Shown one piece after another: positions 56,828 to 61,289 of a stretch of 64,000 nt of DNA. The stretch is taken from positions 62,001 to 126,000 of the forward strand of contig NZ_BPEV01000006.1 in the NCBI RefSeq assembly GCF_019654955.1, read 5' to 3'. Source of the DNA: Shewanella sp. KT0246 (lineage in GTDB: Bacteria; Pseudomonadota; Gammaproteobacteria; Enterobacterales; Shewanellaceae). How positions within the stretch are numbered: position 1 is the stretch's first letter; each line of letters opens with the position of its first letter. A model generated the notes under the pieces. It made no database searches. It was given only the letters and a program-made list of their open reading frames with translations, and was not told the origin of the DNA. The translations under genes were made by a program, and so were the position numbers.

Positions 56828-59221
56828 TTACTCTTGCAGTAAGTCTTTGCAAATCTGCACTAAGTCAGATTGCACCGCCGCTGCCGTCACTTCTCTGCCA
56901 GCGCCAGGTCCTCGGATAATGAGCGGATTGCCTTGATAAAATGCACTACGGATAACAAACACATTATCACCAGGAGTTAAGTTGGCATAAGGATGATTGG
57001 AATCAACCCATTGAATACCCACTTCAGCATGCATCTTGCCATCCACTTTATCCAGTGATGCTACATAACGCAGTACTTTGTTCTGTTCAGAAGCCGCAGT
57101 AAATTGTTGCAACATACTTTGATCTAATTCGCTAATACGGACAAGAAAGTCATCCAGAGATAAATCGGCTAATTCTGCAGGCACTAACGAGTTTAAAACA
57201 ATATCTTCAAGCTCAATATCAAAGCCAATCTCTCGGGCTAAGATCAGCAACTTGCGCTGCATGTCTCTTCCTGAAAGATCGTCTCGAGGATCGGGCTCTG
57301 TTATCCCCAACCCTCGTGCTTCAACCACTAATTCTGAAAACGATTTTTGGCCATCATAATGTTCAAACAACCAACATAAGGTACCAGAGAAAATACCACC
57401 TACAGCCTCAATCGCATCACCACTATTACGCAAGTCGTTTAACGCATGCTGAATCGGCAGTCCCGCACCACAACTGGCATTATAACGCCAAAACAAGCGG
57501 CGATTACTGAGTTGTTGCTTTAACTCGCGATAAAACGGCAATGGTCCGGAGCCTGCAAGTTTATTGGCACTCACCATATGAATGCCACGAGCAAATAACT
57601 CAGGATACTGCAGCGTTAAGCTCGCACTTGCGCTGATATCTAATGCCACTAACTCATCACAATCAAGTTGTTCTAGCTGCTCAAATAAGCTCGGGTAGTC
57701 CCACTTTTGAGCTGTGGTATCGAAACTGTCTTGCCAGTTATTAATATCAATACCTTGTGGACAAATTAGCGCTTCTCTTGAACTAAGTAAGCCAACTAAC
57801 TGCACGGTAGCTTCTAGCTCACGGTTTAGCGCAGTTGATGAGCGCTGGAATAAATCAATCCAGGCCTCACCAATATTACCCACACCTAACAGCAACACTC
57901 CAATTCGCATACGCGGGCCTGCGCAGCGGCGATGCACTTTTTGAGTCAGTAAATTAACTTGAGCTTTAGGCACTAATGTCACCAAGCTCAATCCATCTTG
58001 ATATAACGGCTTAGCGTCACGACTTAGCAGACGAGCAAAACTGCGACGATAGTGCTCAGCGTCAGCGCTAACGAGTGCCACTAAACCTAAATCGTTATTC
58101 ACACGAATATCACTGATTGCCAACGCTTCAGCATGTAATTCGAGTAAACTATGAACCTGCTTCTGATTTTCAAGCGTAAAGGCTAATTCCACCTTATGGT
58201 GGGCAGAAGTCCAGTAAGCTAATGGCGCAATGCCTTCTTGAGCTAATACGGCAATTAAATCTTGAGCTTGAGACAGCTGCTTAATTCGAAACAACACCAC
58301 TTCATTAAGGTTAGTCACCACTGGCGCACTGGCCGATGAGCTTTGTGGCGCGATTAAAGTAAAGTCTGTGTGTGATGCATAGCTTGAACGTACTGCTAAG
58401 CTGACATTGGTATCAAATAATGGTTGTAAAGTGCGGTTATGCAGCACTGGAGAGCCCAGATGAGCAAGACGATCAGCTTCAACAAGTGACATGCTATTTA
58501 ATAATTTTGCATCACTGATTTTATTGGGATCAGCGTTAAATACCCCTTCAACATCCGTCCAAATCGTCACCCGTTCAATATCCGCTAAGCTCGCAATAAG
58601 GGTGGCGCTGTAATCAGAACCATTGCGGCCAAGTAACAAGGTTTCATTGTGCTCATTAGCACAAATAAAGCCGGTTATAACCAAACGCTCATCAGGGTGT
58701 GCTTCAAGAAGTGTTTGCACTCTTTGACGGGACTCTTCAATGCGAATATTAGGCACAACACCTTCGTCAGCCACAAGAATCGAGCAGGCATCAACATTGA
58801 TTGCTGCTACTCCTGACTCACGCAAAAGCGCCGCCATCAACCTTGCTGACCAACGCTCGCCAAAACTCAGTACATGGTTAAGCTGAAATTCGTTTCGCTG
58901 CTCTAAAGATAGCAAGCTGATGAGTTGTGATTTATCCGTTGACAAGCGTTCGCGTAAATCCCGAGCTTGCTCATTGGAAAGTAACTGTTCAATAAGGTTT
59001 TGCTGATAACTTACCAGCACTTGCAGTTCTTCTTGCCAAAGTTCGCCTGCTTCTCTTAGCGACAATAACTTATACAAAAAGTTAGTACTTTTACCCGCAG
59101 CTGACACAACGACTAAATCATCACAATTGCCATGAGTCAGCAAAATATGTGCGACGCGGCGATAGCAATCAGCATCAGCTAAACTTGAACCACCAAACTT
59201 ATGTAAATGACTGCGGGTCAT
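56828..59221 (-). CDS. metL: Bifunctional aspartate kinase/homoserine dehydrogenase (MetL)
   Basis: A 797-aa fusion. The N-terminal aspartokinase has HKFGGSSLAD and NGSDYSATLIASL. The C-terminal homoserine dehydrogenase (from about 465) has the nucleotide-binding GVLLLGVGNIGEAW and the motif around DLSGRDMQRKLLILARE. Start at 59221 has AAGGAG 8 bp upstream; the frame from 59266 adds 15 residues without support. Second gene after metB, as in the metBL operon of E. coli, so it is the MetL-type, methionine-regulated enzyme. A 370-bp gap with 90-bp repeats separates it from metB. Confidence 0.93.
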   Translation of the reverse strand: MTRSHLHKFGGSSLADADCYRRVAHILLTHGNCDDLVVVSAAGKSTNFLYKLLSLREAGELWQEELQVLVSYQQNLIEQLLSNEQARDLRERLSTDKSQLISLLSLEQRNEFQLNHVLSFGERWSARLMAALLRESGVAAINVDACSILVADEGVVPNIRIEESRQRVQTLLEAHPDERLVITGFICANEHNETLLLGRNGSDYSATLIASLADIERVTIWTDVEGVFNADPNKISDAKLLNSMSLVEADRLAHLGSPVLHNRTLQPLFDTNVSLAVRSSYASHTDFTLIAPQSSSASAPVVTNLNEVVLFRIKQLSQAQDLIAVLAQEGIAPLAYWTSAHHKVELAFTLENQKQVHSLLELHAEALAISDIRVNNDLGLVALVSADAEHYRRSFARLLSRDAKPLYQDGLSLVTLVPKAQVNLLTQKVHRRCAGPRMRIGVLLLGVGNIGEAWIDLFQRSSTALNRELEATVQLVGLLSSREALICPQGIDINNWQDSFDTTAQKWDYPSLFEQLEQLDCDELVALDISASASLTLQYPELFARGIHMVSANKLAGSGPLPFYRELKQQLSNRRLFWRYNASCGAGLPIQHALNDLRNSGDAIEAVGGIFSGTLCWLFEHYDGQKSFSELVVEARGLGITEPDPRDDLSGRDMQRKLLILAREIGFDIELEDIVLNSLVPAELADLSLDDFLVRISELDQSMLQQFTAASEQNKVLRYVASLDKVDGKMHAEVGIQWVDSNHPYANLTPGDNVFVIRSAFYQGNPLIIRGPGAGREVTAAAVQSDLVQICKDLLQE

Positions 59222-59281
59222 TTGTAACTCCTTAAACCACTTCAAACTACCACGCAAACTTAGCATGGCGGCAATAAAATC

Positions 59282-59640
59282 TTACTTGTCAACTTAAGAC
59301 TGTTTAACGATTCTCTCGCCTAAAATACTGCTACAGCAGCTAACCCAGCTTGAATATCGGTAACCAAATCTTACTTGTTCAACTTAAGACTGTTTAACGA
59401 CTCTCTCGCCTAAGATGCTGCTACAGCAGCTAACCCAGCTTGAATATCGGTAACCAAATCTTACTTGTTCAACTTAAGACTGTTTAACGACGCTCTCGAC
59501 TAAAATACTGCTTCAGCAGCTAACCCAGCTTGAATATCGGTAACCAAATCTTACTTGTTCAACTTAAGACTGTTTAACGACGCTCTCGACTAAAGTTCTG
59601 CTACAGCAGCTAACCCAGCTTGAATATCGGTAACCAAATC
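59282..59640. repeat. 90-bp tandem repeat including the 3' end of metB (~4 copies)
   Basis: Unit starts at 59282, 59371, 59461 and 59551. Period is 90 bp (first unit 89). Each unit holds TTACTTGTTCAACTTAAGAC, a variable middle and CAGCTAACCCAGCTTG...CCAAATC, which in the last copy is the final 16 codons of metB. In the three other copies the equivalent ends read ...AVF or ...AAS before a stop, but these are not translated with metB. They form most of the metB-metL spacer. Confidence 0.95.
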
Positions 59641-60750
59641 TTCAGCATCTTCAATACCGACAGATAGTCTCAATAATGTATCTTTAATACCAGCTTCATA
59701 GCGGGCTTCTGGCACCATTGCTCTATGGGTCATGGTTGCAGGTACGGCAACTAAGCTTTCCACTCCGCCTAAGCTTTCAGCAACACTGAAAATCGACAAG
59801 GCATCTAAAAATGCCACCACTTCAGCTTCGCCACCTTTAAGTTCAAAACTTAACATAGCGCCAAAGCCTTTTTGTTGTTTGGCTGCAATATCGTGACCTG
59901 GGTGGTCTTTTAAGCCTGGGTAATAGACTTTCTCAACAACATTACTAGCTTGTAGTACTTCAATCACCCGTTGAGCATTAGTTTGATGCTCACGAATACG
60001 CACTGCAAGGGTGCGAATACCGCGTAGGGTTAAGTAACTATCAAAAGCTGAACCGGTCAGGCCTAATGTGTTAGACCACCAATGCAGTAATTCGCCAAGC
60101 TCTGCATCTTTAGCAACCACTGCGCCACCAACCACATCGCTGTGACCATTAATGTATTTAGTGGTTGAATGCATCACAATGTCTGCGCCTAGTTCTAATG
60201 GCTGCTGTAATATAGGTGAAAGGAACGTGTTATCAACCACTACTAGCGCATCAACCTCATGGCTTGCAGCCACAATTGCTTCAATGTCTACCACTCTTAA
60301 TAAAGGGTTGGAAGGTGTTTCTAACCAAACCATTTTTGGCTTTTTAGCAATGGCATCAGCCAGTGCTTTTTCGTCTGTTTGATCAACAACGACTAATTTA
60401 AATTGACCTTTGCTGGCAAGATTAGTGAACAGTCGGTAACTGCCACCGTAACAATCGTGGGGAACCACAATTAAATCTTCTGGCCCCAATAAACTGGTAA
60501 CTAAGGTTATCGCCGCCATACCTGTGCATGTCACTACACCAGTCGCACCATGTTCAAGCTTGGCAATTGCCTCACCTAACACGCAACGAGTTGGGTTGCC
60601 AGAACGGCTATAGTCAAACTCTCTTGGGTTTGTGTGTCCATCGAACGAGTAATTGGTCGAAAGATAAATCGGCGGGACTACTGCGCCATATTGAGTATCT
60701 GATTCGATACCTTGGCGAACGGCAAGTGTAGCAGCACGATGTTTGGTCAT
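59590..60750 (-). CDS. metB: Cystathionine gamma-synthase
   Basis: A 386-aa PLP enzyme of the Cys/Met family, making cystathionine from an activated homoserine and cysteine. Lys198 in HSTTKYINGHSD is the PLP lysine. YSRSGNPTR and TCTGMAA bind cofactor phosphate. SVAESLGGVESLV and the C-terminal RLSVGIEDAEDLV are also typical. First gene of metB-metL, transcribed from a promoter with met boxes and divergent from metJ. Its last 16 codons are in the repeated unit. Confidence 0.95.
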   Translation of the reverse strand: MTKHRAATLAVRQGIESDTQYGAVVPPIYLSTNYSFDGHTNPREFDYSRSGNPTRCVLGEAIAKLEHGATGVVTCTGMAAITLVTSLLGPEDLIVVPHDCYGGSYRLFTNLASKGQFKLVVVDQTDEKALADAIAKKPKMVWLETPSNPLLRVVDIEAIVAASHEVDALVVVDNTFLSPILQQPLELGADIVMHSTTKYINGHSDVVGGAVVAKDAELGELLHWWSNTLGLTGSAFDSYLTLRGIRTLAVRIREHQTNAQRVIEVLQASNVVEKVYYPGLKDHPGHDIAAKQQKGFGAMLSFELKGGEAEVVAFLDALSIFSVAESLGGVESLVAVPATMTHRAMVPEARYEAGIKDTLLRLSVGIEDAEDLVTDIQAGLAAVAEL

Positions 60751-60793
60751 AATAAGCTCCTAAAGATTGACACACTAAAATAAAACAGCAAAG

Positions 60794-60817
60794 AGATGTC
60801 TAGATGGCTAAATGTAC
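60794..60817. promoter_or_regulatory. MetJ operator, cluster 1 (three met boxes)
   Basis: In-register 8-mers AGATGTCT, AGATGGCT and AAATGTAC, compared with the met box AGACGTCT, 44-67 bp upstream of metB. MetJ binds such tandem 8-mers. Confidence 0.8.
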
Positions 60818-60847
60818 CTAAGCTAAATCTGATCGTCAACACAAATT

Positions 60848-60879
60848 AGACGTTTAGACGTCTAAACATAAAGAAATCT
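60848..60879. promoter_or_regulatory. MetJ operator, cluster 2 (four met boxes)
   Basis: Consecutive 8-mers AGACGTTT, AGACGTCT (perfect), AAACATAA and AGAAATCT, in register, in the metB/metJ divergent promoter. Confidence 0.88.
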
Positions 60880-60971
60880 ATTTGCTTTCGTTATAGAATA
60901 GCAGCAATAATTTGACTGTAATAAATAAGCAGTTAAAATCTGCCACGAATCTATCGTATAAAGGTGAGTTA

Positions 60972-61289
60972 ATGACTGAATGGAATGGCGACTATATCAG
61001 CCCATATGCCGAACATGGCAAAAAAAATGAACAAGTTAAAAAAATCACGGTATCGATTCCTTTAAAAGTATTAAAAGTATTGACCGATGAGCGTACTCGC
61101 CGTCAGGTGAATAACTTGCGTCATGCGACCAACAGTGAGCTTTTATGTGAAGCATTTTTACACGCATACACTGGTCAGCCACTGCCAAATGATGATGACT
61201 TATCTAAAGAAGGCCCTGACAGCATCCCTAGTGAAGCAAAAGCATTAATGGATCAAATGGGTATTGAATGGGAAGACTTAGACGACTAA
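60972..61289 (+). CDS. metJ: Methionine repressor MetJ
   Basis: A 105-aa ribbon-helix-helix repressor that uses S-adenosylmethionine as corepressor. [63 protein letters not shown] is almost the E. coli protein. Start at 60972 gives the normal length (105 aa); the longer frame from 60912 is not supported. Divergent from metB, so it probably represses both itself and metBL through the met boxes. Confidence 0.97.

Follow-up and report, generated by a model that had tools for sequence, protein, structure and literature searches.

The spacer between metB and metL in this Shewanella genome holds a tandem array in which the 3' end of metB is present four times. The array is probably an intercistronic minisatellite, an element of an already known kind, and probably neutral; the fuller reading, by which it is specific to its lineage, began with a slip at the motif AAGATTT, was later expanded to four units and is close to neutral, we consider very likely, the parts of it that we infer being the slip itself, the later expansion and the near-neutrality. 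Searches of open-licence papers returned no report of an array at this locus. Within the window, by which we mean the whole 64-kb stretch of DNA analysed, the array was confirmed on the minus strand at 59277-59642 (flanking 7 bp included), where Tandem Repeats Finder gave a period of 90, 4.1 copies, 95% matches and a score of 655, the highest of the 15 rows obtained for the window, the next row scoring 81. The features of the junction are as follows.

60972-61289: metJ, divergent, upstream of metB (PF01340)
59590..60750, minus strand: metB, cystathionine gamma-synthase (PF01053, 484.5 bits; TIGR02080, 657.6 bits, cut-off 504.55)
59636..59642, minus strand: upstream AAGATTT arm inside metB, with the same 7 bp there in S. 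olleyana, S. electrodiphila and TC10
59546..59635, minus strand: unit 1, 90 bp, ending AAVAEL, TAG at 59592-59590, then a 44 bp spacer
59456..59545, minus strand: unit 2, 90 bp, ending AAEAVF and TAG
59366..59455, minus strand: unit 3, 90 bp, ending AAVAAS and TAG
59277..59365, minus strand: unit 4, 89 bp, ending AAVAVF and TAG, its spacer part lacking one A
59277..59283, minus strand: second AAGATTT arm, the downstream edge of the array
59222..59276, minus strand: unique spacer with a ribosome-binding-like AAGGAG before metL, read from the sequence
56828..59221, minus strand: metL, bifunctional aspartate kinase/homoserine dehydrogenase II (NF007003, 1167 bits, cut-off 582)

The start of metL was set at 59221, which is the homologous start in relatives and is preceded by AAGGAG; the ATG at 59266, from which the mechanically listed metL reading frame begins, is an in-frame upstream ATG. 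A tandem AGACGTTT/AGACGTCT at window positions 60840-60870, between metB and metJ, resembles a MetJ operator.

Each unit begins right after AAGATTT and closes with AAGATTT, the 7 bp being present at all unit edges, and comprises the last 14 codons of metB, the stop TAG and 44 bp of spacer (43 bp in unit 4, which lacks an A downstream of the stop), giving lengths along the gene strand of 90, 90, 90 and 89 bp. Unit 1 is the actual 3' end of metB. Eight sites vary among the units (seven substitutions and one deletion), and any two units differ by 3-5 substitutions per 90. The sequence-only reading of this DNA had described a duplicated metB 3' end that drifted after duplication, in four units with a frame-preserving period of 90 and different residues before each stop; the four differing tandem units bear out the duplication and drift, the residues and the period (a multiple of 3) were right, and the description of four such units holds for three of them, the 89-bp length of the last having been missed. 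With four head-to-tail units of 90 bp and 95% matches, the array has the tandem structure of a minisatellite or VNTR (head-to-tail units of about 10-200 bp with high identity). The copy number is read from a draft assembly (4.85 Mb in 183 contigs), in which units could be miscounted.

The unit is confined to a single locus. A search of its own genome, in which all 12 of the 12 candidates were scored, returned four matches, all inside the array, which speaks against a dispersed repeat of MIRU type; the earlier reading had named a dispersed repeat family as a finding that would refute its account. Among 128 other genomes of the genus (best seven or fewer candidates per genome), no matches at E <= 0.001 were obtained apart from those at the metB ends of four relatives.

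The comparison among related species that had been proposed as a check could be made at the metB-metL junction in 128 of the 129 genus genomes searched, the window's own included; one (G091) was left out since its best match reached only E 2.9e-75. An array is found in one of these 128 genomes, each representing a species (four copies against one). The predicted change in spacing to metL was likewise seen: with starts and stops set by homology and the next in-frame stop, so that an error of some codons is possible in a few of the lengths, the spacer of the window measures 368 nt, the longest of all, and those of the other 127 genomes 0-170 nt, 98 of the 128 being at most 41 nt and 30 at least 53 nt. 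At three further loci from other records (L197, L202 and L205) it is 37, 2 and 13 nt. The longest exact periodic run in the spacer is 81 bp in the window and at most 13 bp elsewhere.

In the three nearest relatives, S. olleyana, S. electrodiphila and TC10, the stretch is present as a single copy in a spacer of 98-99 bp and is flanked, unduplicated, by both AAGATTT arms, which lie 87 bp apart from start to start as compared with 90 bp in the window. Unit 1 differs from these single copies at 26-29 of 90-91 alignment columns, whereas the units differ from each other at only 3-5 of 90 positions, which indicates that the expansion of the array postdates the split between the species.

Since AAGATTT stands at every unit edge and both arms are present in the relatives, a slipped duplication primed by the 7 bp is the best reading of the array's origin. 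During replication or repair a strand would have slipped between the AAGATTT close to the metB end and the AAGATTT of the spacer, and the slip would have duplicated the stretch that these two arms delimit. With two copies present, ordinary slippage or unequal recombination between the 90-bp repeats could have raised their number to four, and the copies would then have gained substitutions. The duplicated stretch would start inside metB and end beyond its stop, and the first copy would therefore still encode the whole of MetB; because a duplication of this kind leaves the first copy intact, the array is expected to have been tolerated and to be near neutral.

Two observations count against this course of events. 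The seven substitutions among the units are all confined to 23 of the 90 positions, around the stop (p = 0.0008 under random placement, a post hoc test), and simple drift does not predict such clustering. Furthermore, a study of Salmonella chemostat duplications, which resemble the array in being joined at a short shared sequence, reports that verified duplications had at least 11 bp at the junction, the deduced cut-off for true duplications, and that the 7-bp and 9-bp cases of its Table 1 were negative by padlock probe (PMC3411829); this speaks against an arm of 7 bp as enough for a duplication in a single step.

Duplication at this junction may not be unique within the genus. In two other genomes, at loci L053 (G110) and L059 (G040, corresponding to S. 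hanedai JCM 20706), the spacer contains an old decayed copy of the metL start together with the sequence preceding that start, followed in L053 by a 57-nt piece resembling the metB end. The metL-start matches of both loci and the metB-end match of L053 exceeded all 300 base shuffles; the metB-end match of the L059 spacer is weak (0.04; base shuffles). Judged from these sequences, we infer at least two duplications of the junction in the genus, with breakpoints that differ, the event seen in L053 and L059 being older and independent. What this old duplication has left before metL is, by eye, a short reading frame that has a ribosome-binding-like sequence. Resemblances of the spacers of L022 and L038 to metB ends or metL starts, equalled by 1 and 2 of 300 shuffles, are of the order expected among 62 tests on 31 spacers and were disregarded.

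The array resembles the intergenic minisatellites or VNTRs of bacteria in having units of tens to hundreds of bp that are arranged head to tail, share high identity and lie between genes, and in its lineage-specific copy number; it differs from them in that each unit includes the 3' end and stop of the upstream gene and in that the contrast in copy number is between species only. MIRU form a dispersed family present at many loci, unlike the metB unit, which occurs at one locus only and in which a promoter-like site was not found. Like the array, the MIRU of senX3-regX3 in Mycobacterium tuberculosis consist of tandem units (of 77 bp) between two genes; they differ between H37Rv and CDC1551 and are reported to drive regX3 independently of senX3 (PMC4213456). 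The tandem repeat units of archaeal Borgs are reported as perfect repeats (PMC9879509), in contrast with the drifted metB units, which lie on a bacterial chromosome.

Events of this kind appear to recur in the genome, which has similar arrays at the ends of two other genes. The Tandem Repeats Finder scan covered 2,064,000 bases, about 43% of the genome, made up of the 64-kb window and 100 stretches of 20 kb which all come from the 20 largest contigs and are not a random sample. Of the 217 rows returned, 10 had a period of at least 60, four of which belong to two tRNA clusters (Gly in L256, Arg in L273), leaving six distinct arrays: that of metB and the following five.

L248 4117-4481 (G000:C2:124117-124481): array at the end of a LysR-family gene, 3.1 x 119 bp, 97%
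L303 10405-11612 (G000:C11:50405-51612): array at the end of a multiheme CymA-like cytochrome gene, with the stop and a terminator-like hairpin, 6.1 x 197 bp, 98%
L303 7545-7963: intragenic array, period 159, a multiple of three
L215 15371-15869: array that looks intergenic, 3.7 x 134 bp
L263: array that looks intergenic

Three of the six (metB, the LysR gene and the CymA-like cytochrome gene) span a gene end with its stop, and within the 2.06 Mb scanned no recognised gene start is spanned by any of them. The intragenic repeat encodes the motif YYCPMHPEETSHEAGRCSxCNMFLVK inside a protein that by eye resembles an efflux adaptor. The L215 array was found solely at that place in the genome, and a small reading frame near it looks transposase-like by eye. 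A mechanical reading frame of 90 residues starting inside the L263 array was not taken for a gene.

The unit edges of the LysR array carry AAACCTGT. The gene now ends in NLSS, a changed C-terminus, and to judge from the last copy of the array it would once have ended in NL. A match to the unit was found once in each of three relatives (best six candidates per genome), and their LysR gene ends do not have AAACCTGT at both places, so that an ancestral state with two arms is not seen for this array.

The cytochrome gene at L303, which we take to be cymA, gave NCBIfam matches below their cut-offs (TorC 145 bits against 478.2; napC_nirT 134.8 bits against 310.6). By eye, each full unit in the genome of the window has a hairpin and a T run after the gene end, and GCAAGAAGGCGAC is found both within the gene and near the unit end. 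The copy number of this array changes between species, and the array has persisted through several of them: 6.1 copies in the genome of the window, 5.6 of 200 bp in S. electrodiphila (G027), at least 3.4 of 193 bp, up to the contig end, in TC10 (G093) and about 1.5 in S. olleyana (G062), followed there by what by eye is a transposase gene. Six other genomes read at the locus (G026, G086, G090, G045, G059 and G121) have no array. Copies from the three relatives match the unit of the window's genome at 78-90%, with one 78-nt piece at 94%, while copies within a genome match each other at 98% in that of the window, 94% in TC10 and 88% in S. electrodiphila, values which suggest homogenisation in the first two species and not in the third.

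An alternative to near-neutrality is that the array acts as a functional leader tuning metL. The sequence-only reading had proposed a repeat-rich leader with a possible influence on translation or decay; in the version considered here, the spacing and the repeated RNA elements would weaken the coupling of metB and metL translation or change decay of the intercistronic RNA, and the copy number would serve as a rheostat. The unmatched length of the spacer (368 nt, the next being 170 nt) is in favour of this, as are the description of translational coupling as most efficient at small intergenic distances (PMC12548453) and the folding of the 420-nt region to -125 kcal/mol, a z of -3.26 against its own dinucleotide shuffles (-2.4 for the array alone). 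Tandem repetition by itself raises pairing, however, which makes tandem arrays of shuffled units the fairer control, and against these the fold does not go beyond what repetition gives: the real array reaches -102.5 and the controls a mean of -93.9 (sd 11.4), which corresponds to a z of -0.76, with 25 of 120 controls at least as stable. Unit 1 taken alone folds a little less stably than its shuffles do (z +0.68). No Rfam family reached threshold within 59100-61000, where the lone match, to a lncRNA family (E 0.46, 15.8 bits against a threshold of 48), was taken as chance; the array region has no promoter-like site, and its one weak terminator-like site, with 0.3 expected, is nothing beyond chance. 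Moreover, metL has its own ribosome-binding-like sequence, and close coupling had probably been lost before the array arose, the spacer in the nearest relatives being already about 100 nt, for which reason little effect of the longer spacing is expected. A leader function is therefore not borne out by these results and appears improbable.

We give even less credit to the idea that the array is a cassette for C-terminal diversity, recombination among the units swapping the tail of MetB with the frame kept. The swap is arithmetically possible, as had been pointed out, the period being a multiple of three and the four tails being different, and when the relatives serve as outgroup, units 2-4 go together at site 41 and units 1-2 at site 47, a conflict which, in a weakly aligned part, fits exchange between units; it suggests either such exchange or repeated mutation. 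On the other hand, the tail of MetB is variable across the genus, the final 12 residues taking 64 different forms in 128 genomes, and the Pfam match, which covers 7-380 of 386 residues, leaves out the last six, so that little effect of the tail is expected. The ending retained in unit 1, AAVAEL, is also that of S. electrodiphila, and the periods of the LysR and CymA-like arrays, 119 and 197, are not multiples of three, which shows that keeping the frame is not general to such arrays. A diversity-generating retroelement was set aside, the variable sites of the units not being confined to one base.

That the array is an assembly artefact, the true genome holding one unit or some other number, is just as hard to credit: the source is a draft of 183 contigs, and the CymA-like array of TC10, which extends to within 3 bases of a contig end, indicates that such arrays do trouble assemblers, but short-read assemblers are more prone to collapse repeats than to add them, and copies that differ from one another at eight sites, differences which an assembler does not invent, make pure assembly error unlikely.

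With the slipped duplication retained as the preferred reading, the position of the arrays at gene ends could be explained by which duplications survive. A duplication starting in a gene and ending past its stop would, at any length, preserve the first copy and hence the protein completely or almost completely, while one lying wholly inside a gene would have to keep the frame. The gene-end clustering is a pattern to test and no result, as it concerns six arrays, one of which is the finding itself. It is conceivable, though in our estimate rather doubtful, that gene 3' ends are a favoured birthplace of minisatellites in this Shewanella clade and that the arrays could be adjustable spacers or terminators behind key genes.

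Taken as a single locus, the metB-metL array is a small evolutionary curiosity from which no phenotype is expected. It is also a clean example of the birth of a minisatellite, in which the unit edges, the shared 7 bp and the two-armed single-copy state of the relatives are all readable. If strains vary, these arrays could be typing markers in this Shewanella group. What most deserves attention is that such arrays recur at gene 3' ends, which suggests a simple rule that can be tested across genomes.
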